This document shows, one piece after another, positions 2 through 16,770 of a DNA stretch of 35,364 nucleotides (position 1 is its first letter; each line of letters opens with the position of its first letter). The stretch comes from Candidatus Nitrosocosmicus sp. GTDB taxonomy: Archaea; Thermoproteota; Nitrososphaeria; Nitrososphaerales; Nitrososphaeraceae. The stretch spans positions 1-35,364 of the forward strand of contig JAICXY010000028.1 in the NCBI GenBank assembly GCA_025934495.1. Reading direction: 5' to 3'. The position numbers were made by a program, and so were the translations under genes. A model generated the notes under the pieces. That model was not told where the DNA came from and did no database searches. It saw only the letters and a list, made by a program, of their open reading frames with translations.

Positions 2-385
2 AATAAGATCTTTACATGCTGGACGCAATCAACTGATCCTGATTCTGAGTGGACAGAATGGACTGAATTTTGTATTCCTCCTGGAGGGGTTGATAGTAGT
101 GGTTGTATAACTGCGGCTCCTTTATCAGATGGCAGATTACAACTGTGGATTATCTCAAAAACTACTCCACGCTTACAAACCTGTAAAACATATATTGATA
201 AGAGTTATTCTTGGACAGAATGGTCAGATTTCATTCCAGTTTTAAACAATTGGTCGCCCTTGGCGGTAACTCCGTTATCAAACGGAGGATTGCAATTATG
301 GGCTTCCATGGATAATGAAATAATTTCCTGCTGGACGCAATCAACTGATCCTGATTCTGAGTGGACAGAATGGTCCTATTTTTGA
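2..385 (+). CDS. C-terminal part of a beta-propeller lectin-like protein (5' end outside window)
   Basis: The frame is open from base 2 to a TGA at 383-385, giving 127 residues with no start, so the gene begins upstream. It shows repeated blade-like units: PLSDGRLQLW and PLSNGGLQLW about 52 residues apart, each followed by a segment ending in a WTEW-type motif (SWTEWSDF, EWTEWSYF). This pattern of tryptophan-rich blades of about 50 residues matches PLL/tectonin-type beta-propellers, which usually bind sugars at the cell surface. A 45-bp stretch (17-61) recurs exactly at 329-373, 104 codons or two blades later, so blades were duplicated or converted recently. Function is inferred from repeat character only; substrate and cellular location cannot be judged without the N-terminus. 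Confidence 0.55.
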   Translation, partial: NKIFTCWTQSTDPDSEWTEWTEFCIPPGGVDSSGCITAAPLSDGRLQLWIISKTTPRLQTCKTYIDKSYSWTEWSDFIPVLNNWSPLAVTPLSNGGLQLWASMDNEIISCWTQSTDPDSEWTEWSYF

Positions 386-1042
386 ATTAACTGTGCCATT
401 TTTTATTGAAAGTTAGGTTTGAACATATATTTTATAATATATTTAAACCACAAAATTAGGGTACAATTTATCTTGACAGTATAAGTTTTAACATTATCGA
501 AAATTAAGAAAGTTATTTTAAAGGAGAGACTTTATTAAAGCATGTAAAAGAATAGGAAATGGATAAAGATCATTTTTTTAGACCAATCATATGAAACAAT
601 TGCTTTAACTAAAGATGGAAGAAATTAAGAAATTTAATTGAACTTGAAAGTAATGTGGGTATAATATCAATAATAAAGCATATTATCAAATTTATATTTG
701 TCAGGTATGTGCTCAAAAGTTTTCTAACTATGAAACTTATGTCAAACACTTTTCAATAATCATTAACAATATCGATATAATATTTAAAAAGATAATGAGT
801 TACTATAATATATTGCAAATTAAAAATATATGTTATATACGTTATATTAGATCAGATACATTTAGTTTAATGATCACACTTAGTTATTTTCAATTGAACT
901 AATACACTATTATGGTTGTTATATTTCCTCTTATGGAACACATTCTTAATTTTATTACCGACTCGACTTAGCATAATATTTTGTAATTGTCTAAATAACC
1001 CTACATTTTTGTTGTGCAAATGAAATTTATGGAATATTTAAA
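386..1042. other. Intergenic, AT-rich, no gene seen
   Basis: All frames are heavily interrupted and I recognise no protein remnant, RNA gene or clear repeat. The last 100 bases presumably carry the promoter of the DUF4062 gene that starts at 1043 (for example the A/T-rich stretch near 970-985), but no TATA element stands out. Confidence 0.5.
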
Positions 1043-3373
1043 ATGAAGATGATATATAAGAGATTATTCGTGGTCAAAATCTATGTCTCCTCTACATATG
1101 AGGGATCTAAAAGAGTATAGAAAAGCGGTTTATGATGCTTTGAGAAAGATGAGGCATGATGTTATTGCTATGGAAGATTATGTTGCTACAGATCAAAGGC
1201 CACTACAAAAATGCTTGACATATGTTACATCCTGTGACATTTACATTGGCATATTTGCATGGAGATGTGGATTTATTCCTGACGATAAAAAAGACAATCC
1301 CGATAGTCTTTCTATAACTGAACTTGAATATAGAAAAGATTGTGAGGTTGATATTCCAAGTTTGATATTCCTATTGGATGAAAATGTATCTTGGCCACGT
1401 CGTTTTATGGATAGAACTACACAATCTCGAATCAAGAGTGATGATAATATTAATAGACTTCGTAATGGATTTGGAAATGATTATGTTACATCCAAATTTA
1501 AAAATAAAGATGAATTGGCTAGTCTTGTATTAAATGCAGTAAATAACGCATTAAAGTATTCAGAACAAAAACGATCTGCTACAAAAGGTCTTAAACCTAA
1601 TGTTGTTACTGATACTTTATCTCTTTCTTCATTATTGGCTCAAAAGCCTTCTTTATTTAAAAATGAAAAATCTTTTTTTGTCGGAAGAGAAGAATACATC
1701 AACAAAATTATAAAAGACCAAATAACAATTCCTTCATCTAGAGTTTGTATTGTAGGCCCAGGTGGTTCTGGCAAAAGTCAGCTTGCATTCAAAACCATTC
1801 ACCAGTATGAAAAAGAAGGGCTGTTTGATTTAGTTATTCCAGCATATTTCTCCGATATTTCTATAATGACATTCTCTGCTTTTCTATTACATATTTCCAA
1901 GTCTTTTCTTGATATACACCAGATAGGCGAATTTGAAAAACTGGATATAGAACAACGCAAAACCGTTATCTACAATCTTCTATCTCAAAAAAAGCATCCT
2001 TTGTTGTTCTTGGATAATTATGAGACTATATCTTATATTCTAAATGATAAAGAGAAAATTACTGTTGAAAATGCAGAAGATGCAAGAAAAATTAGCTACT
2101 TTCTTAACAACGAGATTCCATCTAACACTTCTGTTTTAGTTACTAGCAGAGAAAGACGTAATAATTTTGGAGCCAAAGAAATAAGGATAGATCTGGCAGG
2201 CTTACAAGAACAAGAATGTATCGAATTATTTTCTGGATTGACTTCAGATGACTACTTAAAAAATCAACAGAACATAATGAAAGATCCAACAACAAAATCT
2301 GCAATTTCTAAAATATTTAACATGACAGGTGGTCATCCCCTACAATAGAAATAATTGCAAAAAACATCTTGAGCATTCACGAAATTAGCGATATGATTGA
2401 TACTTCGGGTATTGGAAAGATTAACATAGATGAACCAGAGAAACGTTTCCAATCACTTGAAGCTTGTTTTGATTATACTTTAAAAAAATTATCAGATAAA
2501 ATTAAAAATATGTTGTATTGTTTGACATTGTTCAAATCACCATTTCCAATTTCTGTTGCTAAAGATATTTTCAACGATGAAATAAAGTCCATTACAGAAC
2601 TTTATAATAGAAGCCTTGTTTTGCAAATAAAATCAGAAACTAGTTTTGGTGAGATAGGCAATCCTAAATTCTGGCTATACAGCATACACCCGGCAATAAG
2701 GAACTATTTGGAGAAGACAATAGACAAGGCAATAGGAAAATCGAACCATGATTTAAAAAAAGAACATGGTGCCAATTTCTATGCGTATTACTATGATATA
2801 CTTTTAAAAATCTACAATTCAATAGGAAAAGAGAATCGTAGAGATTCTTTAGCTCAATTTAATATTATCTCTCAAGGTAAAGATAATGATTTTGAGCGTT
2901 CAATAATCTTTTTACGAGATAAAAAAGATAAAGAATACGAGCAAACAAGTGCACACATCCTTAGATATTTGGGCGGGATATCCAAAGATATTGGTCTTTA
3001 TACCAAAGCAGAAGAGTACTTCAAAAAAAGTATTGATATTTATAATAAAATAGGTAACATAGTTGGATTGACAAGAGCTTACAGAAACATTGGACGTGTA
3101 TATTACAATATGGGCGAATACGAGCAAGCTCTAGAATATTATAACAAAGCAGTTGAGATTGATACAGATCTAAATAATAGAGTGAGAATGGCAAAAGACT
3201 ATCACAGTCTGAATTTTCCATTATATAGAATGAATAAAAAGGAAGAAGCATTAGACTATCTTTCTATTGCAAAAACAATTCTACTAGATTTCCACAAAGA
3301 AACTGGATATTCTCATCCTTTGTTAAAAGATGTTGAAGACAGAATTTCATCTTTGAATCAAGACAAAGAATGA
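1043..3373 (+). pseudogene. DUF4062-NB-ARC-TPR STAND ATPase (NLR-like), two frameshifts
   Basis: One gene read in three pieces. From ATG 1043 the frame gives MKMIYKRLFVV then KIYVSSTYE, the usual DUF4062 start. It shifts at the GGG run 1102-1104 (one extra base) into LKEYRKAVYDALRKMRH and the rest of the domain (DIYIGIFAW, SITELEYR). The ATPase follows: FFVGREE, Walker A GPGGSGKS, Walker B PLLFLDNYE, sensor LVTSRER and MTGGHPL. A second shift, one base missing near 2342-2343, precedes IEIIAKN; the correct frame is clear from the paralogue at 9555. It then runs through the winged-helix part (YSIHPAIRNYLE) and two or three TPRs to 3373. STAND ATPases of this type act as defence sensors in the cytoplasm, with the N-terminus as effector. 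The shifts are +1 and -1, so either the gene is dead or the sequence has two indel errors. Confidence 0.8.
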
Positions 3374-3486
3374 TTTTAGTCTTGCAAATTGGAGATTTTT
3401 AACTATTGTTAATGTCCATCAATGTATTAAAAAATATGAAATAAAGAATGGTTATATCATGCTCTTGATCAACATTTCAAATAGTA

Positions 3487-5313
3487 GTGGATCCAGCGAC
3501 CAAAACAAAAAATAATAATAGATTAGAAAAACAAGAAGTTCTCTTTACAAGTGACAATAACAAAGATAGTACCAACAAAAATATTAAAAATAAAACAATA
3601 TTAGTTAAATCTTCTATTAACGATTCAGCAGAAAATATTATTGGTACTTTGGAACTACCATTTAAACCCCAGTCTATCATTCTAGTTTTTGGAGGAGCGT
3701 CAGGTAGCCTTGATACTTCCTCTGCATCACTTTCCATACTTTATCCAATCCTCGATACTGTTTTGCAGTATGCTCTAGATAATGATGCAATAATTATCGA
3801 TGGTGGAACCAAATCAGGAATAATGGAGTTAGTTGGTCAAAGGGCCATAGAGATGGAACAAAACAAAAAGCCTGTTCTTTTGGGTGTTGCCCCTGCAGGA
3901 TTAGTGGTCTATCCTAACTCTAGTAAAGAGGGCGATAAATGGAAAGAGGATATTGATAAAGCAGACCTAGATCCCAACCATTCTCATTTTGTATTGGTTG
4001 AAGGAGATAAATGGGGCGATGAAACATCAAAGTTGTTTGAAATAGCTACTGCTTTGGCTAGTACTGGTGTAGATAATATTCCAATTGTGGCCCTTCTAGC
4101 AGGTGGTGGCCAAATATCTAAAAAAGAAATGCTCTTTTGTATCAATAAAAGCTGGCCTATTATTGTTATTGAAAAAACAGGATATTTGGCTGATGAAATT
4201 GCATCATGTAAAAGGCAAAATCTTCAGAATATGTCTAATACTAAAATAAAGAAAATAGTATCCTACCCCTCTCTTAAATTATTTCCTTTCGATTCTAATC
4301 AACAAAAAAAATCATCATTTGAGCAATTTTTACTCTATACTTTAAACTATGATCCTTTACTTGAATCAGCATGGAAAAATATGGCCATTTACGATAAGAG
4401 TGCTAAAATACTCCAATGTAATTTTAATAGATTTCAAAAATTTATACTTGGAATTGGTGTATTGGCTACTTTACTTGCAATAATTCAATCACAATTTAAA
4501 GTGTCACCGTCTACTTTCTTTGTTGATATACTATACTATGTTTTGATAGTACTACCAATTATCATTTCTATCTTGATAGCTGCTTTAAATCGCTTTAGAT
4601 ATGGCGCTAAATGGGTATTGCTTCGAGCTGCTGCAGAAGCTATAAAAGGTGAGATCTATCATTATCGTACTAAATCTTTTCTATACAGACAGGAAGAAGG
4701 TAAAATAACAACAACAACATTAACCCCCAAAGAAAAACTATCAAACAGAATTAGTTATATAAACAGTTCATTGATGAAAACGGATGTAAGTTTGCATGGT
4801 CTTTACAAATATGATGATCTTCTTCCACCTAAAATGTATGGTGCTGCCGGAGATGATGATGGATACAGTACTCTTTCAGCAAAACAATATATAAAGATAC
4901 GAATAGAGGATCAGATTTCATATTATCAAAAAACTACATTTAAACTTGAAAAGCAGCTAAAGACCTTACAGTGGTTGATATTGTTAAGTGGTGGAGCAGG
5001 AACAATTTTGGCAGCAGTACATTTTCAAATATGGATAGCATTGACTACAACATTGGTTGCAACATTTGTATCCTTTTTAGAATACAAACAAATAGAAAAT
5101 ACCTTGATAAAATACAATCAAACAAGAACAGAGCTTGATAATATAAAATTATGGTGGATGTCTTTATCAGGTGCTGAGAAAACAAAACAGGAAAATAAAG
5201 ATGAATTGATTCAGAAAACAGAAGATGTTTTACGCACTGAACTAAGTGGTTGGATAAGACAAATGCAAGTTGCCATAGATAAATTATATATTAAAAAGAA
5301 GATGATCAACTAG
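3487..5313 (+). CDS. LSDAT (SLOG-family) protein with two SLATT-type membrane modules
   Basis: 608 residues from a GTG start. Residues about 62-245 look like the prokaryotic LSDAT domain, the SLOG branch related to the TRPM N-terminus: SIILVFGGASGS, AIIIDGGTKSGIMELVG, PVLLGVAPAG, HSHFVLVEGDKWGDET and PIVALLAGGG. Two DUF4231/SLATT-like modules follow. The first has membrane helices near 318-336 and 345-367, then RYGAKWVLLRAAAEAIKGEIYHYRT. The second has helices near 493-511 and 513-531, then a charged helical tail. Known of the family: SLOG domains bind nucleotide-derived ligands, and SLATT domains are predicted two-helix membrane effectors of defence systems. Inferred: a membrane receptor that opens or damages the membrane when a nucleotide signal binds. 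It starts 113 bases after the DUF4062 gene and ends 96 bases before the TIR-NACHT gene. The frame is intact. Confidence 0.75.
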   Translation: MDPATKTKNNNRLEKQEVLFTSDNNKDSTNKNIKNKTILVKSSINDSAENIIGTLELPFKPQSIILVFGGASGSLDTSSASLSILYPILDTVLQYALDNDAIIIDGGTKSGIMELVGQRAIEMEQNKKPVLLGVAPAGLVVYPNSSKEGDKWKEDIDKADLDPNHSHFVLVEGDKWGDETSKLFEIATALASTGVDNIPIVALLAGGGQISKKEMLFCINKSWPIIVIEKTGYLADEIASCKRQNLQNMSNTKIKKIVSYPSLKLFPFDSNQQKKSSFEQFLLYTLNYDPLLESAWKNMAIYDKSAKILQCNFNRFQKFILGIGVLATLLAIIQSQFKVSPSTFFVDILYYVLIVLPIIISILIAALNRFRYGAKWVLLRAAAEAIKGEIYHYRTKSFLYRQEEGKITTTTLTPKEKLSNRISYINSSLMKTDVSLHGLYKYDDLLPPKMYGAAGDDDGYSTLSAKQYIKIRIEDQISYYQKTTFKLEKQLKTLQWLILLSGGAGTILAAVHFQIWIALTTTLVATFVSFLEYKQIENTLIKYNQTRTELDNIKLWWMSLSGAEKTKQENKDELIQKTEDVLRTELSGWIRQMQVAIDKLYIKKKMIN

Positions 5314-5364
5314 AAAAAAAGCGTTTAAAGAAACCACCCAAATTTAATTTCATGATATTGGCAA

Positions 5365-5380
5365 TATAAATAAATATATA
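5365..5380 (+). promoter_or_regulatory. TATA-like element upstream of the TIR-NACHT gene
   Basis: The run TATAAATAAATATATA lies about 30-45 bases before the proposed TTG start at 5410, where an archaeal TATA box would serve a leaderless or short-leader transcript. It suggests this gene has its own promoter, though read-through from the genes before it is possible. Confidence 0.4.
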
Positions 5381-5409
5381 TGTTTATCAAATCATAATTC
5401 TTAATATTT

Positions 5410-8400
5410 TTGAGGATTTTTATCTCTTACTCAAGGAAGGATGCAGTGGATATTGCTGAAAGTCTCCGTGATTCATTAATGCATAATGGTCATCAGGTTT
5501 TTACAGATGTCAAAGATATACAGGAAGGCGATATTTGGAGCAATGTAATTGAAGAGAACATCAAATCCTGTGACATTTTTATAATTTTACTTACCTATTT
5601 CTCACTCAAAAGCCCGGATGTTGAAAAGGAAGTTGTTTTGGCAAAAAAAGAGGATAAAAGAATAATTCCCTGTATCTATAAAGGAATTGATTTAAAAGAT
5701 ATAAAATGGAGTTTGCAAGAGATTCAAGGACCAATATTTGAGGACAAATTTGATCTGATTCGAAAAATAAGAATTCCCTCAGTTGTTGATAAAGATAAAA
5801 GAGAGGTTCCTAAATCCATAGGTTTCTTTGATTATTATAAAGTTAAAGTAAAATCTGATTATGAATACAAGGATAGCTTAGAATGTATACCTAAAGATAT
5901 TGAATTTCTAATTCCTGAATTCGAAATTAATAACGTTGGAGAGTCATATATTAACCAAAGATATAGGCGATGGAAGAAAGAGAAAAAAATGTCAGAAAGT
6001 GGAGATGATATAGTTGATGATAAAGGAGATGATATAGTTGATGATAAAGGAGATGATATAGTTGATATAATAAAACGCCTACTCCGGCATTATCATGTAG
6101 TTACCATTGTAGGAGAATATGGATGTGGAAAAACTGCAACATCATTTAAGATATTATATGATTTAATAAATGAGGAAAAAGATTTCAATCCTATATACTT
6201 ATCAATACGATACTTTAGGAACGATCTGTCAAATGATGTGCTTAATATGGATAATTTGATTATTAAAATTTTAATGAACAAATATAAACTGAATTTTAAT
6301 GAATGTGACGTACAACAATTCAAAGACTACTTAAAGGAGGGGAAATTTACGTTTATTCTGGATGGCTTAGAAGACATTGGTGAATCTGATGGTATTTACA
6401 AGTTTATAGATAAAGTCATAGAAATAATTGTGAGTAGCAAAAATAGAGTTATTTTTACCTCTAAAATCAACACTTTAGATAAAAAGATAAAGAATCTACT
6501 ATTGCACTATCCAGTTATAGAGATAATGGATTTTGGCGAAAAAGAAATTTCCAAATTTATAGATAAAAACGCAAAGAAAAAGGCTGCTGAAATAAATAAA
6601 TTAATAGGCATGATGAATTTGAACGATTTAATAAAAAAGCCTCTTGTAATAAATGCAATCTGTGATAACATTGATAAATTCAAAGAAATAGCCAAAGAAG
6701 AAGGAATCAAAATAGGGATTCAGAACATTTTTGAAGTCATAATTAATAGTTCTATCGAACACGGTTTCAATAGAAACCTAGGAAATAATACCAATTACTC
6801 AACGGTTGAAAAACAACAATATATTTCTATGATAAGAAAAGTGTCAGAGGATGTTGCAGTTAATCAATACCTCGGTGAAAATAAGCCAATACAAAAAATT
6901 GCTAATAATTATTTTGAAGCTTATCTTAAATATCCAAAATCTGAGGATTCTTTGGAGAATCTATTGTATTTCATTGATTCCCAAATTTTTCTTTTTGTGG
7001 ACAATAATAGAGTTTGTTGGTTTACTAATAATCAATTGATTGAATATTTTGTAGCTAAGCGGATCTTAGTTAGTATTTTAAAAAAGTCTACAGATGAATT
7101 TTTTAAAATTACAAAAATTCCATTAAGTGAAGAAATATTGAACCATATATCTCATATACTAAAAGATCTTAATATTCTTAAATTAGATGACCATTATTTT
7201 GAAAATCAATCACGAAATTGTAATTTACAAGATGAAATAATCAAAGAATTAAATAACTTGATAGAAAATCCTCAAAATGTCTCTAAAGGTGCAGCCATAT
7301 CTATTTTAGCAATGATTGATAAAGATAATTTGCGTATATTAGAACGTATTAGTTGTTTTGGTCAAAGATTGAATCTAACTAATTCAAACTTACGAAGTTT
7401 AAATTTTTCACATCTTAGACTACACTGTGATTTCAGTAACTCGAAGATGGAAGGCATTAAATTTCGAAAATCTATATTAACTGGCTCTTTGTTTAATAAT
7501 TCTCAACTAAAGAATTCTGATCTGTCTAAAACAAACTTAGAAAATTGTAATTTCGCAAATGCAGATTTAACTGGAAGTAATCTTTCGGGTGCAAATCTTT
7601 CTCATTCTTTTCTAGAGGGATCTAATCTTACAAGAGCGGATTTAACCGGAACTATTTTAACTAAGTGCAATTTTGCCGGCGCAGATTTATCGCATGTTTC
7701 ATTATGTTCTTGTATTTTTAAGAGTGACGGTATGATAAAAGAAGATTTATCTTCTCCAATTATCTTTAAAGACGCCTACTTTTTTCATACTGATTTTGAA
7801 GGTATTGAGATAGAAGCTGACTTTAATGAGGCTTTCTTTTGGCAATGTGATTTAGGGTTTGCGAATTTTGGATCATCAGATTTTAGTAATACCGTATTTC
7901 AATTTGTCCGATTTAACAATACAAAATTCAAGCCTAATCAATCATCCAATCCCTTCTTTCACTATTCGCCCATAATCTATGAATTTAAAGAGATAATCAA
8001 TAATAATCACAACAATAGTTGTGTGGAATTGGAGGAACAAGAATATGAACATTTCAAGAATTTTTGTAAGACATTATGTGGTCCATCTAATCATCATGTC
8101 AGACATGTTAGGATAGTTAATAAAAATAGAGTAGTTTTATATCAAAATACAAATACATCTTTACTCCCACTTGTACTAGATAATAGAGATAAATTTATTT
8201 TAATTCACCATCTGCTTTCTAATTGGAGTTCATTAACTTTATATCAAAAAATAAGAAATGATTCTGATAATATAGTGTCTACTATAATTATCTATGATAA
8301 AATAAATATCATTTCTATTCCAAGAGAATTGGATGAGGTCCTACTAATAGTCACTACACAGAATAATTCAAATTATAATGATGTTATAAAATGGTGTATT

Positions 8401-8865: not shown

Positions 8866-8953
8866 TTTTTATTTTATCCTTAAGATGATAATTATTTATG
8901 TGGATCTACTTAACTATAAATATATAGTTTGAATATTTATCTACTATGATTAA

Positions 8954-9554: not shown

Positions 9555-12500
9555 ATGAGCGATAATAATCCTGCCAAGACAGTTTTCATTAGCTATGCTA
9601 GAGAAGATTTTAAACATGCAGAAAGACTTTACAATGAATTAAAAAAGGCAGGATTCAAGTCTTGGCTAGATAAACACAATATATTACCAGGTCAAGATTG
9701 GAAAGAGGAAATTATGGATGCAATTGAGAATAGTAGATATTTCATTCCTCTTTTTTCTTCGACCTCTGTTCAAAAAATAGGGTTTGTACAAACGGAATAC
9801 ACATTTGCATTAGATTATGCAGACAGATATCCTCCAAGGATGATATTTGCAATACCTGTTAGATTAGATGATTGTAAGATTCCTTATCGTAAACTACGAC
9901 AAAAACATACTGTTGATTTATTTCCTGAACAAAAATGGAATGAAGGTGTCACTAGTATTATACAGGCTTTGAACTTAGAAAATAATGATAAAGATGATGG
10001 GAAAACAGGTAAAGACATAGATAATAATCTTATTACCTCTATTGCTAATACTACTTCATCATCTCTATCTTCATTATTGGTTCAAAAGACTTCAAGATTA
10101 TTTAAAGGTGAGAAATTATTTTTTGTTGGAAGAGAAGAATATATCAACAAAATAATAAAAGAACAAATCAAAATTCCTTCTATAAAAGTTTGTATTGTGG
10201 GACCCGGTGGTTCAGGAAAGAGTCAGCTTGCATTCAAGGCTATCCACCAGTATGAAAAAGAAGGACTGTTTGATTTGGTTGTTCCCGTATATTTCTCCGA
10301 TGCATCTAAAATGACATTTTCTAGTTTTTTGTTAAATATTGTCAAGACTTTGTTTGATATAAATGATATAAATGAATTTGAAAAATTAAATATAGATGAC
10401 CAAAAAACTATTGTCTATAATTTTTTAGCCCAAAAAAAACATCCATTGTTGTTCTTGGATAATTATGAGACTGTATCCTATATAATAAATGATGAAAGGC
10501 AGACTGCAACGGAACAATATGATGAGGCTGTAAATATAAGTAATTATCTTAACCTTTTGAATAATACTTCAATTTTAATTACAAGCAGAGAAAGGAACAA
10601 TAATTTTGAAGACAAAGAAATACCCATAGATCTGGAAGGCTTGCATGAGCAAGAGACTAGGAAATTATTTTCTAAATTGACAAAGGAACGTTATTTAAAA
10701 AATGTTAAGAATATAATGACAGATCCAAAATCTAAAGCAGCGTTATCTAAAATATTTAAAATGACAGGTGGTCATCCTTTATCCATTGAGATAATTGCAA
10801 AGAATATCTCGAGCATACACCAAATAAATCAAATGGCAGATACTCTTGGCCTTGGAATTGTTAATACAAATGAACCGGAGAAACGCTTTAGATCTCTCGA
10901 AGCTTGTTTTGATTATACTATAAGTAGGTTACCCGAAGAAATTAAAAAGTTATTATACAATCTGACCTTGTTTAAATCTCCATTTCCAATTGATGTGGCT
11001 CAAGAGATTTTTAATAAAAATATAAAATCCGTTGATGAGTTGAAAGAACGAAGTCTACTTTTTGAGATAAAATCAGAAAGCAGTTCTGACGAAATCAGTA
11101 ATTCTGAATACTGGCTGTATGATATACACCCAGCAATAAGAAACTATTTGGAAAAAACAATGCAAAAGGCAATTAACAAAATCTATCCAGATTTAGAAAA
11201 AGAATATGGTCAAAAATTCTACAAATATTATTGCAATATACTTTTTAATACATGTAATTCAATTGGAAAAGAAAACATTCATAAATTTTCAATAGCAAGA
11301 TTCAATCTGATATTCAACCATGGTTCCGAAAATAACGATTTTGATAGGGTCATCACATTTGCAGAACATTATAACGATTTAATATATTCTGCAAGTATTT
11401 GCAGAGAAATGGGTTTAATTTTAAATTCCATTGGCATATTATCCAAAGCATTATCTTATCATAAAAAATCACTTGATTCTAATCAAAAGCGAAATGATAG
11501 GTTGGGTATGGCGGGAGATTATAGCAATATTGGAATAATATTTAAAAATATGGGTAATCAGGATGAAGCGATGAATAGCAGCAGACAGGCATTGGAAATA
11601 CATGAGGATCTAAATGATATGTCAAGTATGGCGAGGGATTATGATAATATTGGATTAGCTTATTTTTACAAAGGTCAACTCGATGATGCACTGGAATTTC
11701 ATAACAAGGCGTTGGAGATAGATAAAGATCTAAATGATAGGTTGGGTATTGCAAGGGATTATGGTAATATAGGATTAGCTCATTATTACAAAGGTCAACT
11801 CGATGATGCACTGGAATTTCATAACAAGGCGTTGGAGATAGATAAAGATCTAAATGATAGGTTGGGTATTGCAAGGGATTATGGTAATATAGGATTAGCT
11901 CATTATGACAAAGGTCAACTCGATGATGCATTAAAGTATCATGAAAAGGCGTTGGAAATCCATGCAGAATTAAATGATAGATTAGGCATGGCTAAAAATT
12001 ATACTAGTGCAGGCATGGTATATAGAGACAAAGGTCAACTCGATGATGCATTAAAGTATCATGAAAAGGCGTTGGAAATCCATGCAGAATTAAATGATAA
12101 AGTTGATATGGCGAGGGATTACAACAATATAGGGCTAGATTTTTTTTACAAAGGTCAACTCGATGATGCACTAGAATTCCATAACAAAGCGTTAGAAATA
12201 AGGACAGAGTTAAAGGAAAAGATCCGAATGGCTAAGACATATACCGATATAGGCATGGTATATAGAGACAAAGGTCAACTCGATGATGCATTAAAGTATC
12301 ATGAAAAGGCGTTGGAGATAGATAGAGTTTTAAATGATAAAGTAAACATGGCTAGAGATTATGGAAATATTGGCCTAACGTTCAAATATAAAGGTCAACT
12401 CGATGATGCACTGGAATTTTTAACTAAAGCATTGGAAATACACATAGATCTGAATGACAAGGTGGAGACAGCTAGAGATTATAGCAATATTGGACTTGTA

Positions 12501-12908
12501 TATTTTTACAAAGGTAAAATGGAAAATGCATTAGAATTCCATAATAAGTCATTGGAAATAAGAAGAGTTTTAAATGATAAAGTAAACATGGCTAGAGATT
12601 ATAGCAATATTGGACTTGTATATTTTTACAAAGGTCAACTTAATAATGCACTAGAATATCATGAAAAGGCGTTAAGCATACGAACAAAACTAAATGATAA
12701 AATTGGCATATCTAAAGTTTATTATAACATAAGCCGCATATTCTTTACTGAAAATACTTTAAATTCCAAAAATGATAAAGACAAGTCTCTTCATTATCTA
12801 AAAAAATCAAAAGAAGTTCTCGAGGTATTTGAAAAAGAAACAAAATACAGATATCCATTTATGGAAACAGTGTTAAAAAGGTTTAATGAATTAGAGAATA
12901 ATACTTAG
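9555..12908 (+). CDS. TIR-NB-ARC-TPR protein (NLR-like STAND ATPase)
   Basis: 1117 residues from ATG. TIR domain at 8-145: KTVFISYAREDFKHAERLY, GFKSWLDKHNILPGQDWKEEI, and S..GFVQTEYTFAL with E81 in the catalytic glutamate position. NB-ARC-type ATPase from about 190: FFVGREE, Walker A GPGGSGKS (216-223), PLLFLDNYE, ILITSRERN, MTGGHPLSIEIIAKN. A winged-helix-like region with YDIHPAIRNYLEKT follows, then about twelve TPRs of 40 residues from about 613 to 1085. Expected role: a cytoplasmic sensor whose TPR platform recognises an invader, whose ATPase oligomerises, and whose TIR cleaves NAD or makes a nucleotide signal. The ATPase core is nearly the same as in the DUF4062 gene at 1043, so the two are paralogues with different effectors. 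The stop codon lies in a TTAGAG sequence that also begins an IS5-like end. Confidence 0.85.
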   Translation: MSDNNPAKTVFISYAREDFKHAERLYNELKKAGFKSWLDKHNILPGQDWKEEIMDAIENSRYFIPLFSSTSVQKIGFVQTEYTFALDYADRYPPRMIFAIPVRLDDCKIPYRKLRQKHTVDLFPEQKWNEGVTSIIQALNLENNDKDDGKTGKDIDNNLITSIANTTSSSLSSLLVQKTSRLFKGEKLFFVGREEYINKIIKEQIKIPSIKVCIVGPGGSGKSQLAFKAIHQYEKEGLFDLVVPVYFSDASKMTFSSFLLNIVKTLFDINDINEFEKLNIDDQKTIVYNFLAQKKHPLLFLDNYETVSYIINDERQTATEQYDEAVNISNYLNLLNNTSILITSRERNNNFEDKEIPIDLEGLHEQETRKLFSKLTKERYLKNVKNIMTDPKSKAALSKIFKMTGGHPLSIEIIAKNISSIHQINQMADTLGLGIVNTNEPEKRFRSLEACFDYTISRLPEEIKKLLYNLTLFKSPFPIDVAQEIFNKNIKSVDELKERSLLFEIKSESSSDEISNSEYWLYDIHPAIRNYLEKTMQKAINKIYPDLEKEYGQKFYKYYCNILFNTCNSIGKENIHKFSIARFNLIFNHGSENNDFDRVITFAEHYNDLIYSASICREMGLILNSIGILSKALSYHKKSLDSNQKRNDRLGMAGDYSNIGIIFKNMGNQDEAMNSSRQALEIHEDLNDMSSMARDYDNIGLAYFYKGQLDDALEFHNKALEIDKDLNDRLGIARDYGNIGLAHYYKGQLDDALEFHNKALEIDKDLNDRLGIARDYGNIGLAHYDKGQLDDALKYHEKALEIHAELNDRLGMAKNYTSAGMVYRDKGQLDDALKYHEKALEIHAELNDKVDMARDYNNIGLDFFYKGQLDDALEFHNKALEIRTELKEKIRMAKTYTDIGMVYRDKGQLDDALKYHEKALEIDRVLNDKVNMARDYGNIGLTFKYKGQLDDALEFLTKALEIHIDLNDKVETARDYSNIGLVYFYKGKMENALEFHNKSLEIRRVLNDKVNMARDYSNIGLVYFYKGQLNNALEYHEKALSIRTKLNDKIGISKVYYNISRIFFTENTLNSKNDKDKSLHYLKKSKEVLEVFEKETKYRYPFMETVLKRFNELENNT
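11641..12700 (+). repeat. 120-bp tandem DNA repeats encoding the TPR array
   Basis: About nine consecutive 120-base units, each encoding 40 residues. The core AAAGGTCAACTCGATGATGC (coding for KGQLDDA) is kept base for base in seven units, starting at 11669, 11789, 11909, 12029, 12149, 12269 and 12389. Bases 11666-11786 are identical to 11786-11906. This is far more DNA identity than TPR protein constraint requires, so units were duplicated or converted recently. Confidence 0.9.
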
Positions 12909-12930: not shown

Positions 12931-13474
12931 AAATATGGCTAATTAATATTCTTATGACTAAATGTTATACTAAAAGTAAAATACTTGGAGGGATACAACG
13001 TTGACAGTTGTTTTGAGATTTTTTAAAGAAAAAATGAAGTGGTAACAATAAAGTATTAATAATAATTCCTAATATTTTATAAAACAACCGTCCAGATCGT
13101 CAAACTGTCCAGAAACTGAAGATATCGATAATAAGGTTATGTCTTATTTGTGATGGGATTATTTCTGTTCCAATATCTTTAAATATCTATTTACTCAAAT
13201 TAGGTATGAAATCCTGTTTAGAGGACCGATATCAGCACCAAGCCCTACGGGCCCGCTTCATAACTAAATCCTTTAATACTTAATTGGTTTGGTATTTGTT
13301 CAGGCTTTTTGATTTATCGATATTAAAATCATCTGAATTCTTTTCTATTTCAAGAGACACCAACATTAAAGGAATTTCCCATATATTACTATAATAAATT
13401 TAGATATAGAAGATTTTTTGCAAAGAATATCAATTATTGTATGAATATAATGTATATCATAATATCATAAATTA
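12931..13474. other. Intergenic, no gene seen
   Basis: No frame of interest on either strand. A short GC-rich patch at 13225-13258 contains the small hairpin GCCC-TAC-GGGC (13242-13252), too weak to call as an RNA or terminator. The rest is AT-rich and probably decayed insertion-sequence or spacer DNA. Confidence 0.45.
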
Positions 13475-13535
13475 GGTTCTGTTGAATCTCTAGGTGTTAT
13501 TTTTGGGTGTTCAAAAATGGGTGGTGAAAAATTAC
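13475..13535 (+). repeat. Left terminal repeat of the IS6-like element
   Basis: Outer tip GGTTCTGTTGAATC, then GGTGTT, TTGGGTGTTC and ATGGGTGGTGAAAA. It is an imperfect inverted match to 16331-16392. Confidence 0.6.
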
Positions 13536-13735
13536 GAGTATAACAATATCTCCTTTATTTCTTTTAACTTTAGTTTGTTCAACTTGATATCAATCCCATG
13601 TCCTGTGTTATATTGAATAATGAATCCCCAAGCGACTAGTTCTTTATACGCTTTGTTTACATTTTTGCTTTTCAAAGATCTAAGAATATTTTCTTTAGGA
13701 GTATGTTTATCGCCTATGATGTTCCTATTATACAT
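13532..13735 (-). CDS. Small winged-helix-like protein
   Basis: 67 residues from the ATG at 13735. The frame is open upstream to about 13774 (EQTHRDILRK before MYNRN), so a longer form from a non-ATG codon is possible. The pattern HTPKENILRSLKSKNVNKAYKELVAWGFI looks like a winged-helix recognition region, followed by a short tail resembling the wing (GIDIKLNKLKLKEI). Probably a DNA-binding protein of the IS6-like element, whose left terminal repeat it touches. No family name is assigned. Confidence 0.5.
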   Translation of the reverse strand: MYNRNIIGDKHTPKENILRSLKSKNVNKAYKELVAWGFIIQYNTGHGIDIKLNKLKLKEIKEILLYS

Positions 13736-13918
13736 TTTCCTTAAAATGTCTCTATGTGTCTGCTCCAGAACAATCGGTAATATATATGTATCGATAGTAT
13801 TTAAACATCATGTAGTTTATTACTGACTATTTTATTACCTCAAATAATACAATTCTATTATGTAATATGCAGTAATTTAATACATAACTTTATTAGCTTG
13901 GTCTAACATATATCAGTA

Positions 13919-14257
13919 TTGGCCTCAGAAAAAGATGACTTGGGAGTATATGGTAGATTATTTTCTGGAGTAGCAATGGCAAAAGTTCTAGATTTCTTTA
14001 TCGAGAGTCAGGAAGATGTTTATTCACAAACAGAGGTAGCACAGCATACATCTTTATCCAATAAAACAGCATTCACAGCTGTCAATAAGTTAAAAGATAT
14101 TGAGATTTTAAAACTTGTTAGAAAAGTGGGACAGGCAAAAATGTATAAATTGAATTTAGAGGAATCAAAAGCCGCTCAACTGTTAGAGAAAGCAGCAATC
14201 GAAATTGCTAGTATAGAAAATGAAAGAATAGTTAAAGAACAAGCAAATTACGACTAA
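13919..14257 (+). CDS. Winged-helix transcription regulator
   Basis: 112 residues from a TTG start (MASEKDDLGVYGRLFSG). The region VLDFFIESQEDVYSQTEVA, then HTSLSNKTAFTAVNKL and EILKLVRKVGQAKMYKLN, reads as a winged helix: helix, turn, recognition helix and wing, as in MarR/ArsR-like archaeal regulators. It is tail to tail with the AbrB gene, three bases between their stop codons, inside the IS6-like element. It probably controls the element or its cargo. The TTG start is the first usable codon giving the full fold; no Shine-Dalgarno was seen. Confidence 0.65.
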   Translation: MASEKDDLGVYGRLFSGVAMAKVLDFFIESQEDVYSQTEVAQHTSLSNKTAFTAVNKLKDIEILKLVRKVGQAKMYKLNLEESKAAQLLEKAAIEIASIENERIVKEQANYD

Positions 14258-14260
14258 TAT

Positions 14261-14428
14261 TTATTTCTTTTTTATGACTACAACTCTATTATCGTTCTGA
14301 GTTTCCATATGCCATTCAACCTCATCTCTTTCTTTTAACTTTAAAAATTCAACGATAGACTCAGGTATAGTGCTTTTTAAAGACTTGGTTCCTTTCTTTG
14401 CCGCTGCTACTTTCGTTGTAACTCCCAT
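14261..14428 (-). CDS. AbrB/MazE/SpoVT-type DNA-binding protein
   Basis: 55 residues from the ATG at 14428 (MGVTTKVAAAKKGTKSLKS); nine further codons upstream are open but lie over the promoter. The sequence TIPESIVEFLKLKERDEVEW with a closing beta strand (NRVVVIKKK) is the swapped-hairpin AbrB fold, a dimeric DNA-binding domain used by antitoxins and transition regulators. It is divergent from the transposase at 14496. The 67-base gap holds two copies of the palindromic ATCGACCGAT, so it may repress both itself and the transposase. No toxin gene is next to it. Confidence 0.75.
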   Translation of the reverse strand: MGVTTKVAAAKKGTKSLKSTIPESIVEFLKLKERDEVEWHMETQNDNRVVVIKKK

Positions 14429-14441
14429 AATAAGTAAACTA

Positions 14442-14492
14442 ATCGACCGATACATATATTTACATATCTCTTATATCATATATCGACCGATA
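14442..14492. promoter_or_regulatory. Paired palindromic operator candidates between AbrB and transposase
   Basis: ATCGACCGATA occurs at 14442-14452 and again at 14482-14492, exactly 40 bases apart. Each is an imperfect palindrome (ATCG-AC-CGAT). They flank the TATA-like CTTATATCA (14470-14478) that would serve the ATG at 14496. Likely binding sites for the AbrB or winged-helix protein. Confidence 0.5.
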
Positions 14493-14495
14493 AAT

Positions 14496-15614
14496 ATGAC
14501 GACATGTAATATTGATTTCCGTAAAAATGATGGGATATTAATACTAAAACAAGGTAGTAATATCATCTCTAATAGAGAGAATAGTTATATTGTTAAATCT
14601 CAAACCTTTCCCGATAAAAAATATACCGTTGAACTATTAGAATCTGTATGGGTTTGTTCATGTCCTGATTTTGAATATCGTAAAATTGAATCCTGTAAAC
14701 ATATCCATGCGGTCAAACTATTTATAGAAGCACAGCAACAGAAACCTCAAATCTTTTCAGAGGATGCTGTAAAGTGTGACCAATGTGGTTCTATAAAAGT
14801 TATGAGATATGGTAGTTATAAAAATAAACAAGTATTCAAATGCAAGGACTGTCAGCATAAATTTAAAGAACAATCCTTATTGAAAGGGATAAAGTTTAAC
14901 CCTGAAATAGTTACATTTGCTCTTGACCTCTATTTCTCAGGATTATCGTTAAGAAAGGTAGCTAGAAACATGAACGACCACTTTAGTTTGGATATGAGTT
15001 TTTCGACCATCTATTCATGGATTCAGAAATATATTCCAAGAATATCTGAGCATGTTAACTCGCTAATCCCTCAACTATCAAATCAATGGCACGTTGATGA
15101 ACTGTTTGTAAAGATGAAAGATGGTGAAACAAGGAAAGGTCATACAGGAATTGCTTATCTGTGGAACGTAATGGATAGAGAATCAAGGTTCTTGATAGCT
15201 TCCAAGTTATCTGAAAAAAGAGACATTAACGGAGCAGTTCAAGCATTCAACGAGGCGATAAAGAATAGCCATAACAATAAGCCTGATGTAGTCTACACTG
15301 ACGCTTTAAGAGCTTATAGAGAAGGCGTAAAAACATTAGGGGATAAGGTTGAGCATATAGCCAAGTGTGGTATCAACAAGCCTCATGCTAACAACAATAG
15401 AATAGAACGAATGAATGGAACTTTGAGGGAAAGAGTCAAAGTCCAAAGAGGTTGGAAATCAAGCAAGTCAGCTATATCAGAAGGTCAAAGAATCTATTAT
15501 AACTTTGTCAAACCTCATCAAGCCTTAGAAGGAAAGACGCCAGCGGAGAAGGCTGGGATAAACATTAAAGAGAAGGATAAATGGAAGAATTTATTTAAAT
15601 ATCCATCCGATTAA
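14496..15614 (+). CDS. IS6-like DDE transposase with SWIM and zinc-ribbon domains
   Basis: 372 residues from ATG 14496; an in-frame ATG at 14370 would overlap the AbrB gene and is rejected. The N-terminus holds a SWIM finger (CSC at 54-56 and CKH at 67-69), followed by a zinc ribbon (C94, C97, C116, C119), a helix-turn-helix region (FALDLYFSGLSLRKVARNM) and a DDE catalytic core of IS6/IS240 type: D201 in WHVDELFVK, D269 in VYTDALRAYR, E304 in NNRIERMNGTLRER. The catalytic residues and frame are complete, so it may be active. It would excise or copy the element through its GGTTCTGTT ends. SWIM fingers bind DNA or protein and are unusual on an IS6-type enzyme. Confidence 0.85.
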   Translation: MTTCNIDFRKNDGILILKQGSNIISNRENSYIVKSQTFPDKKYTVELLESVWVCSCPDFEYRKIESCKHIHAVKLFIEAQQQKPQIFSEDAVKCDQCGSIKVMRYGSYKNKQVFKCKDCQHKFKEQSLLKGIKFNPEIVTFALDLYFSGLSLRKVARNMNDHFSLDMSFSTIYSWIQKYIPRISEHVNSLIPQLSNQWHVDELFVKMKDGETRKGHTGIAYLWNVMDRESRFLIASKLSEKRDINGAVQAFNEAIKNSHNNKPDVVYTDALRAYREGVKTLGDKVEHIAKCGINKPHANNNRIERMNGTLRERVKVQRGWKSSKSAISEGQRIYYNFVKPHQALEGKTPAEKAGINIKEKDKWKNLFKYPSD

Positions 15615-15626
15615 CATATAAATATA

Positions 15627-15827
15627 ATGACATATGTTTCAATTCAGAAATCAAATAGACAAGACAATGGAATATTTATAGAATTGGGGAAACAAAATAA
15701 AAAATATCAAAACCCTTCGATTCAAGAACATGATTATATTTCAATTGTTGGAGACATTATAAGTCCATCTTCAAACAATGAAGGCTATTTACTTAAAGCC
15801 AATGAATTATTTATCTCACATACATAA
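15627..15827 (+). CDS. Small hypothetical protein after the transposase
   Basis: 66 residues starting 12 bases after the transposase stop, so probably on the same transcript. The tail HDYISIVGDIISPSSNNEGY and LLKANELFIS has the alternating strand pattern of a small OB-like nucleic-acid-binding fold, but this is only a guess. I do not recognise a family. Confidence 0.45.
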   Translation: MTYVSIQKSNRQDNGIFIELGKQNKKYQNPSIQEHDYISIVGDIISPSSNNEGYLLKANELFISHT

Positions 15828-15861
15828 ACAATTAAATCCATCTTTCCTTTCTTAGATATTA

Positions 15862-16329
15862 TTGTCCAATATTCAGAGATATCCTTCTGAATTTGAAGAT
15901 TTAGATTTTGAAGTGATAGAGGAACATTGGAATGAATATGAATTGGAGGATAACTCCCGAATAAAAATAAGATTAGTATTAAAGAAGATGATTGGTGATC
16001 CTCATAATCCTAATCATATAGCTTGTGATTTTGCTCCAGTAATATTTTCCGTCTATACTCCTATTTCATATAGAGGGGAACTCAATAATGCACCTAAACC
16101 TGAAGAATATGAGACTTTACCTAGTTATGAAGTAAGAATAGAAAGAGCGAACGAGAAATTTAATAGATATAGAATCCTTAAAAAGGATATAATTGTCAAA
16201 ACTAAATTAGAGGTTCCAGAAATCAAAAGGATTACTGATAGATTTGATAATGATGGCATTCCATTCTATGTGGTTTATAATATGCCACATTTTTTAATAA
16301 TGGATTCTAAAAACAAAATTCAACCTTAA
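15862..16329 (+). CDS. Hypothetical protein, cargo of the IS6-like element
   Basis: 155 residues from TTG 15862 (MSNIQRYPSEFEDLDFEVIE). The protein is mixed alpha/beta and charged, without membrane segments. Patterns such as EYELEDNSRIKIRLVLKKMI and KKDIIVKTKLEVPEIKRITD suggest beta strands. It ends two bases before the right terminal repeat and lies downstream of the transposase. No function can be assigned; an accessory role for the element or a protective role for the host are both possible. Confidence 0.5.
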   Translation: MSNIQRYPSEFEDLDFEVIEEHWNEYELEDNSRIKIRLVLKKMIGDPHNPNHIACDFAPVIFSVYTPISYRGELNNAPKPEEYETLPSYEVRIERANEKFNRYRILKKDIIVKTKLEVPEIKRITDRFDNDGIPFYVVYNMPHFLIMDSKNKIQP

Positions 16330-16330
16330 G

Positions 16331-16392
16331 TTCACTATTTACCACCCAAACTTAAACACCCATTTTCAACACCCACGGAGTGAACAGAACCC
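16331..16392 (-). repeat. Right terminal repeat of the IS6-like element
   Basis: On the minus strand the outer tip reads GGGTTCTGTTCACTCC, then GGGTGTTG, ATGGGTGTTT and TTGGGTGGTAAA. It is the inverted partner of 13475-13535. Confidence 0.6.
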
Positions 16393-16770
16393 GTTTTTAC
16401 AATCCATGATTCGAATATACAAGATAAATCTCATGCCTTTAAGTCCTCTCATGGTTTTCTCTCTATCTCTAATCTCCCCGTTCATCCTTTCCATTTTGTT
16501 ATTGTTATGGTCTCCTTGTAGTCGAATGTGGTTGATGTGTCTTGTTCTAGGCCATTTGTTAGTATAGAATTCTCTGTTAAACGCTGTATGGAAATTGGGT
16601 GCTCCGTCACTAATCAAAGTGTTCGGTCTAGTTCCTGCTACTTCCTTTCCCTTCGAGAATAAAGGAGTTATATCAGCGGTGTTCTTAGTGTCTGCCACCT
16701 GTTGGGCAATTCATGACCCTGTCTCGTCATCCATTAGGGCATAAAGATACTTTGTATTGCCCTTTACTTT
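16366..16770 (-). pseudogene. Fragment of a second IS6-like transposase
   Basis: The minus strand reads VKGNTKYLYALMDDETGS, an in-frame TGA, then IAQQVADTKNTADITPLF, ...NTLISDGAPNFHTAF (second catalytic Asp) and NNNKMERMNGEIRDREK (catalytic Glu). The first Asp and the N-terminus are missing, one codon is a stop, and the end runs into the GGGTTCTGTT tip of the neighbouring element. It is a dead DDE transposase of a different IS6-like type from the SWIM enzyme, probably interrupted when the 2.9-kb element arrived. Confidence 0.75.

Follow-up and report, generated by a model that had tools for sequence, protein, structure and literature searches.

Insertion sequences (IS) of the IS6 family are described, in the accessible part of PMC7986276, as compact elements of 789-880 bp with a single gene and ends of 15-20 bp; the same text names a single member that carries a passenger, ISDsp3, and mentions zinc-finger forms from Clostridia. 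Harmer and Hall have proposed, in the available text of PMC6807381, that the archaeal and the long bacterial members should leave the family, which makes ‘IS6-like’ the safer label for archaeal relatives. A thaumarchaeal survey described IS-like transposons one to two genes long and noted, in the portion available, that transposons with diverse passengers were undetected in archaea and might await discovery (PMC6563490). Here, we describe a 2,917-bp element on contig C138 (35,364 bp, the whole stretch analysed and referred to below as the window) of a 3.56-Mb draft archaeal genome. We put the probability at roughly 85% that it belongs to a family of archaeal unit transposons that carry cargo, with an IS6-like DDE transposase that also bears a SWIM domain and a zinc ribbon.

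Like the IS6/IS26 family, including its archaeal members, the elements described here have an IS240-type DDE domain, GG...CTGTT tips and, in relatives of the window element, 8-bp duplications, but they are 2.1-6.9 kb long, with ends of about 50 bp and variable cargo. In the window element the outermost bases at either end are GGTTCTGTT, which gives it the GG tip and the cTGTt motif of IS6, whereas its length, its several genes and its 54-bp ends are unlike the canonical format (one gene within roughly 0.8 kb, bounded by ends of 15-20 bp), and for this reason as well we call it IS6-like and not a canonical IS6 element. Clades h and i of IS6 (Clostridia) share an N-terminal CxxC zinc finger and ISDsp3 shares a passenger gene, but these elements are 1.2-1.76 kb long, and a SWIM domain, a divergent regulator and diverse cargo are unreported for them in the accessible parts of the two papers (PMC7986276, PMC6807381). 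Bacterial tIS and unit transposons likewise hold one transposase and passengers between inverted ends, but belong to other transposase families. Eukaryotic Mutator-like elements and Pack-MULEs combine a DDE core and a SWIM zinc finger with long ends, 8-9 bp duplications and captured genes; their likeness to the present elements would be a distant functional one; a fold class is shared, and transposase family and domain order differ. No published description of a group of SWIM cargo elements was found in a search that was thin on subscription journals and preprints, and priority is not proven.

The transposase reading frame of the window element is open and its product matches the Pfam model DDE_Tnp_IS240 at 63.5 bits (cut-off 27), and the NCBIfam IS6 equivalog at 122.5 bits, slightly under the cut-off of 125. 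Its own matches to SWIM (E 0.02) and zinc-ribbon models are sub-threshold. Across the 11 proteins of alignment A1 there is no variation in the SWIM motif C-x-C...C-x-H, in the four cysteines of the zinc ribbon or at D201, D269 and E304, Pfam SWIM is matched at E<=0.05 by 13 of the 14 proteins of alignment A2 (best 7.3e-6), and the SWIM motif and the zinc ribbon are each present in 63 of the 64 elements delimited below. An initial reading made from the DNA letters (the sequence-only reading) had placed both domains ahead of an intact DDE core, and this is borne out. Sequence searches returned no relatives of solved structure at E<=0.01; the best fold match of the predicted model is the IS256-family ISCth4 transposase (template-modelling (TM) score 0.32-0.34), a level that speaks for an RNase H-like core and nothing further. 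In a tree, nine short IS6 proteins stand apart from 24 SWIM proteins (those of the 64 that were clean enough in the coordinates used) with 100/100 support, the bootstraps not being settled.

The window protein was searched in 61 related genomes and matched 40 of them at E<=0.001, short IS6 proteins included; the 11-row alignment matched 94 of 300 genomes of the class at E<=1e-40, and the search of a named genome collection gave 64 loci. From fetched stretches, 136 distinct transposase loci were obtained, a non-random sample drawn from genomes with matches and from chosen stretches, and each was scored for matched inverted ends with an exact 8-bp direct repeat on their outer sides, with a threshold of at least 15. 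This score is reached by 59 of the 136 loci and by none of 408 offset controls in which the right repeat was shifted by 3, 11 or 29 bases (maximum 13), so that chance ends are rejected. Removal of L155, whose tips differ in type, leaves 58 duplication-bearing elements of 2,087-6,928 bp (median 3,255), and six elements delimited by hand (the window element, L009, L063, L065, L071 and L080) complete the set of 64. Hosts of such elements are found among Nitrososphaerota, Bathyarchaeota, Methanoperedens, Methanoregula, Methanomethyliaceae and Thermoplasmata. A bacterial match from Dehalococcoidia (L190) starts at residue 102 only; ISDsp3 likewise comes from Dehalococcoidia.

Evidence for movement as a unit comes from a relative, L171. 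When its flanks are joined with one copy of the duplication, a 299-codon open frame results, and bases 3-592 of the joined DNA align with genome G122 (L272) without gaps (89.2% over 590 nt, junction at base 450); the 2,736-bp unit, its AbrB-type gene and a 132-amino-acid (aa) gene included, was therefore inserted in one piece, cargo and transposase moving together between one pair of ends. The joined flanks of L156 restore an open frame as well. In these relatives the unit inserts whole, with its cargo, and produces an 8-bp target duplication; two checks proposed in the sequence-only reading, a search for 8-bp duplications and one for empty sites, had a positive outcome in relatives, the former in 58 of the 136 loci. 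As a control, 20 short IS6-like copies from the same or related genomes were treated in a similar manner: 12 were delimited at a score of at least 12 and measure 666-673 bp, a 13th (score 9) measures 690 bp and the other seven were not delimited. These short copies have the same tip and 8-bp duplications but no space for cargo, their ends lying no more than about 60 bp from the gene. A single genus contains both short and long forms.

A second copy in the genome of the window element, on contig C66 (L009), is 3,059 bp long and has perfect 51-bp ends at the same offsets; six of eight duplication bases agree in its flanks. The two transposases are 95% identical, and the copies have in common only a 1,342-bp block (90% DNA identity), which begins at the AbrB stop codon and stops 12 bp short of the transposase end, and a 55-bp repeat at the right end (98%). 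Their cargo differs: L009 carries a protein with an NYN domain (E 8e-13) and another of 302 aa that Pfam does not match. Among 28 pairs of transposases with protein identity of 70% or more, nucleotide similarity is present between the right cargo arms of one of 25 comparable pairs and between the left arms of six of 28, four of these by 221-238 nt beside the transposase only and one nearly over the whole arm (L205/L209). The four closest pairs all have the core in common, three of them together with both ends, and the window/C66 pair with the right end only. Ends and core are retained, then, while cargo is replaced, so that a conserved cargo set between the ends, for which the sequence-only reading had proposed a search, is rejected. 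Cargo genes in the same order without the ends, named at that stage as a refutation, do not appear among the matches listed in the 61 genomes. The genome also holds two solo element ends without a recognised partner (C34:7112-7151 and C163:10858-10887), and at L225 two SWIM elements (1243-3580 and 3589-8045) abut, both with the 8-bp sequence TGTTTCGA, with a third transposase at 8880.

The 64 elements contain 115 cargo open reading frames (ORFs) of at least 130 aa, of which 29, chosen by size or look, were scanned singly, as was a further ORF of 95 aa. The remaining 86, scanned in two sets, gave few Pfam matches, and most cargo is therefore of no assigned family. The recognised proteins are listed in Table 1. 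PADLOC was applied to ten of the cargo ORFs and to a set of 43, with ten of the 43 rerun to trace one match. PADLOC backs eight of the ten candidates tested, with no match for the AbiV protein of L076 or the DUF3800 protein of L063. Proteasome-like (Ntn) proteins, an unusual passenger, are found as cargo in five elements (L069, L161, L166, L207 and L233).

In the window element, neither the 66-aa nor the 155-aa ORF is matched by a Pfam or NCBIfam model at E<=1. Relatives of the 155-aa protein occur in 16 of the 61 genomes, its own included (best foreign match 33%), and three of these relatives adjoin what we take to be a potassium-channel-like gene; the winged-helix protein has relatives in 27 of the 61, scattered as chromosomal genes (best foreign match 49%). 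Among the matches listed, no contig except the window holds relatives of both, and this distribution fits capture of accessory host genes. The first reading had bounded the element at 13475-16392 and given it an AbrB gene, a winged-helix gene, both taken as its own regulators, and two unknown genes. Paired inverted ends confirm these bounds except that the right end lies one base earlier, and the gene list stands with the addition of the 67-aa ORF. As to regulation, the AbrB gene is kept as the probable regulator, but the winged-helix gene is probably cargo, because it does not recur beside the transposase and its relatives are scattered in chromosomes.

Table 1. Features of the window element and recognised cargo of related elements
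Locus	Feature	Position	Strand	Remarks
Window	Whole element, 2,917 bp	13475..16391	+	Paired inverted ends; left-flank repeat; right flank opens within decayed transposase
Window	Left terminal inverted repeat, 54 nt	13475..13528	+	GGTTCTGTT tip; internal GGTGTT/GGGTGTT/GGGTGG iterations
Window	67-aa ORF, unknown (cargo)	13532..13735	-	Unmatched in Pfam and NCBIfam below E 0.1
Window	112-aa winged-helix-like protein, probably cargo	13919..14257	+	Weak FUR/HTH matches, sub-threshold in Pfam
Window	AbrB/MazE-type small DNA-binding protein	14261..14455	-	Divergent from transposase; probable transposase regulator
Window	Two direct repeats ATCGACCGATAYATAT, candidate operators	14442-14457 and 14482-14497		Divergent promoter region (14442..14497)
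Window	Transposase, 372 aa	14496..15614	+	SWIM (residues 54-69), zinc ribbon (94-119), DDE core (D201, D269, E304)
Window	66-aa ORF, unknown (cargo)	15627..15827	+	
Window	155-aa ORF, cargo	15862..16329	+	Distant relative of small thaumarchaeal protein family occurring outside such elements
Window	Right terminal inverted repeat, 54 nt	16338..16391	-	Last 52 bases 51-52/52 identical to both C66 ends
L082	Type II restriction-modification pair, ThaI and methylase			
L156	Type II restriction-modification pair, Tsp45I and methylase			
L212	Methylase and HNH			
L161	HSDR_N-methylase-specificity fusion			Also proteasome-like protein
L081	Eco57I-type			
L077	Methylase			
L168	GmrSD_N-HNH			
L230	Fic			
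L076	AbiV HEPN			
L063	DUF3800			
L165	Full-length PD-T7-4 homologue and DUF3800 protein	252-4122 (element)		PD-T7-4: PADLOC E 3.5e-78
L143	ParB-DUF488			
L148	SDH protease			

Several observations weigh against reading the window element as a member of a family of cargo-carrying unit transposons. An exact duplication with good ends is lacking at 77 of the 136 loci, many of them contig-edge or partial genes and some decayed or missed, and the window and C66 copies are among these 77. At the window copy no 8-bp target duplication was found (three of eight bases agree), and its terminal repeats, the longest inverted pair within 12.5-17.5 kb, are just 72% complementary. In addition, the structure model of the transposase is of moderate quality (predicted local distance difference test 70.8, predicted TM score 0.50), the classes assigned by eye to the small divergent genes are backed by Pfam in part only, and the regulator role is deduced from position and weak domain matches.

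The state of its ends makes it a serious possibility, if one somewhat short of even odds, that the window copy is chimeric, with the left arm of one element joined to the core and right arm of a related one, and has lost its mobility as a unit. Its left end shares 37 of 52 bases with its own right end and 37 of 52 with the left end of C66, while its right end and that of C66 agree at 51 of 52. The flanks, too, are of differing origin on the two sides, and the missing duplication points the same way. On the left, a genomic repeat (13249-13470) has uninterrupted copies on C176 (96%) and C197 (94%), which continue beyond the insertion point, whereas the window copy of the repeat stops at the element start; an empty site was sought in this way, but the repeat is not resumed in the right flank, and support is therefore given to the left boundary only. 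Set against a chimera are the intact transposase and the fact that elements with exact duplications can have unlike ends too (agreement at 27-52 of 52 bases in most of the set), so that unlike ends alone are no proof of immobility. Abutting the right end is a decayed transposase remnant (16366-16764, minus strand) of the same broad kind as L101. Further to the left, the window encodes a 1,117-aa protein (9555-12908) that we presume to resemble a TIR-NB-TPR receptor and whose C-terminal part contains near-identical 120-bp tandem repeats.

A different question is posed by the AbrB-type gene, whose product matches the Pfam models MazE_antitoxin (E 4.6e-4) and PrlF (E 3.2e-4), both below cut-off. 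As these best matches are antitoxins, the gene could be an orphan antitoxin or cargo and not a regulator of the transposase, which we consider unlikely. A toxin gene is not recognised in the window element, the gene lies within the conserved core of the window/C66 pair, and three unrelated folds fill the same divergent place in the family: the nearest divergent ORF, classed by motif and by eye, is AbrB-like in 22 elements, ribbon-helix-helix-like in 20 and a zinc ribbon in three, mostly 65-130 bp from the transposase start. A stricter, mechanical count, which required a divergent ORF to be 50 aa or longer and no more than 250 bp away, gives 41 of the 64 elements, and among 46 proteins picked by eye from the 64 (regulator set A3), Pfam at E<=0.01 recognises 12 MazE, five RHH_1 and two each of several zinc ribbons. 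Judged from its sequence and placement, the AbrB-type gene is the probable regulator of the transposase, and repression is suggested by the divergent layout and by the ATCGACCGATAYATAT direct repeats in the divergent region, which are found in the C66 copy too.

That the window holds an ordinary IS6 insertion sequence, with chance or decayed repeats as outer ends and host genes as neighbours, would suit the missing duplication and the chromosomal relatives of the cargo genes, but is very improbable given the perfect ends of the C66 copy at the same offsets, the duplications found at such ends in relatives, an empty site that lacks cargo and transposase together, and genuine short IS6 copies that stop so close to their gene. 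Just as improbable is a compound or pseudo-compound structure of two IS6 copies around cargo, one of them decayed, for which the transposase remnant immediately beyond the right end (16432-16764, minus strand) and the pseudo-compound units made by IS26 elements (described in the accessible part of PMC7986276) might be cited, but that remnant lies outside the element and the 58 duplication-bearing elements have, by construction, one transposase between paired ends, with duplications at the outermost ends and therefore a unit that moved whole. The sequence-only reading had proposed a regulated compound element; an IS6-like element with cargo and a probable regulator is upheld, but since each pair of ends encloses a single transposase, it is to be read as a unit element and not as a compound transposon. 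That reading is correct in substance but too narrow.

For the family of unit transposons we propose the following model. The layout runs from an inverted end of about 50 bp through variable cargo, a small gene for a DNA-binding protein in divergent orientation (AbrB, ribbon-helix-helix or zinc ribbon), the transposase and more variable cargo to a second inverted end. The SWIM and ribbon zinc domains may bind the repeated motifs of the long ends, and the small divergent protein would repress the shared promoter region and thereby limit transposition. Cargo could be swapped by recombination via the conserved ends and core, or by the use of alternative nearby ends, the latter suggested by the solo ends on C34 and C163 and by the abutting elements of L225, which share one duplication sequence. 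Because the ends of the window copy differ and no duplication is left, its present state probably goes back to an IS6-type event with adjacent deletion, or to recombination with another element.

Whether these elements amount to a widespread and previously undescribed class of modular archaeal transposons, derived from IS6-like insertion sequences, in which a fixed chassis of ends, regulator and transposase swaps passengers time and again and so spreads anti-virus genes, such as restriction-modification, PD-T7-4 and AbiV, from one archaeal genome to another, is a proposal to which we give an even chance. SWIM cargo elements fit the gap named in the available portion of the thaumarchaeal survey (PMC6563490) and, if the proposal is true, would be an archaeal counterpart of the bacterial passenger transposons thought to be missing from archaea. 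The coexisting short and long forms would provide a natural experiment on how an insertion sequence turns into a cargo vehicle, and the elements may be of use as DNA-delivery tools for ammonia-oxidising archaea. For the archaea themselves, they would represent a concrete route by which defence genes are transferred from one to another.

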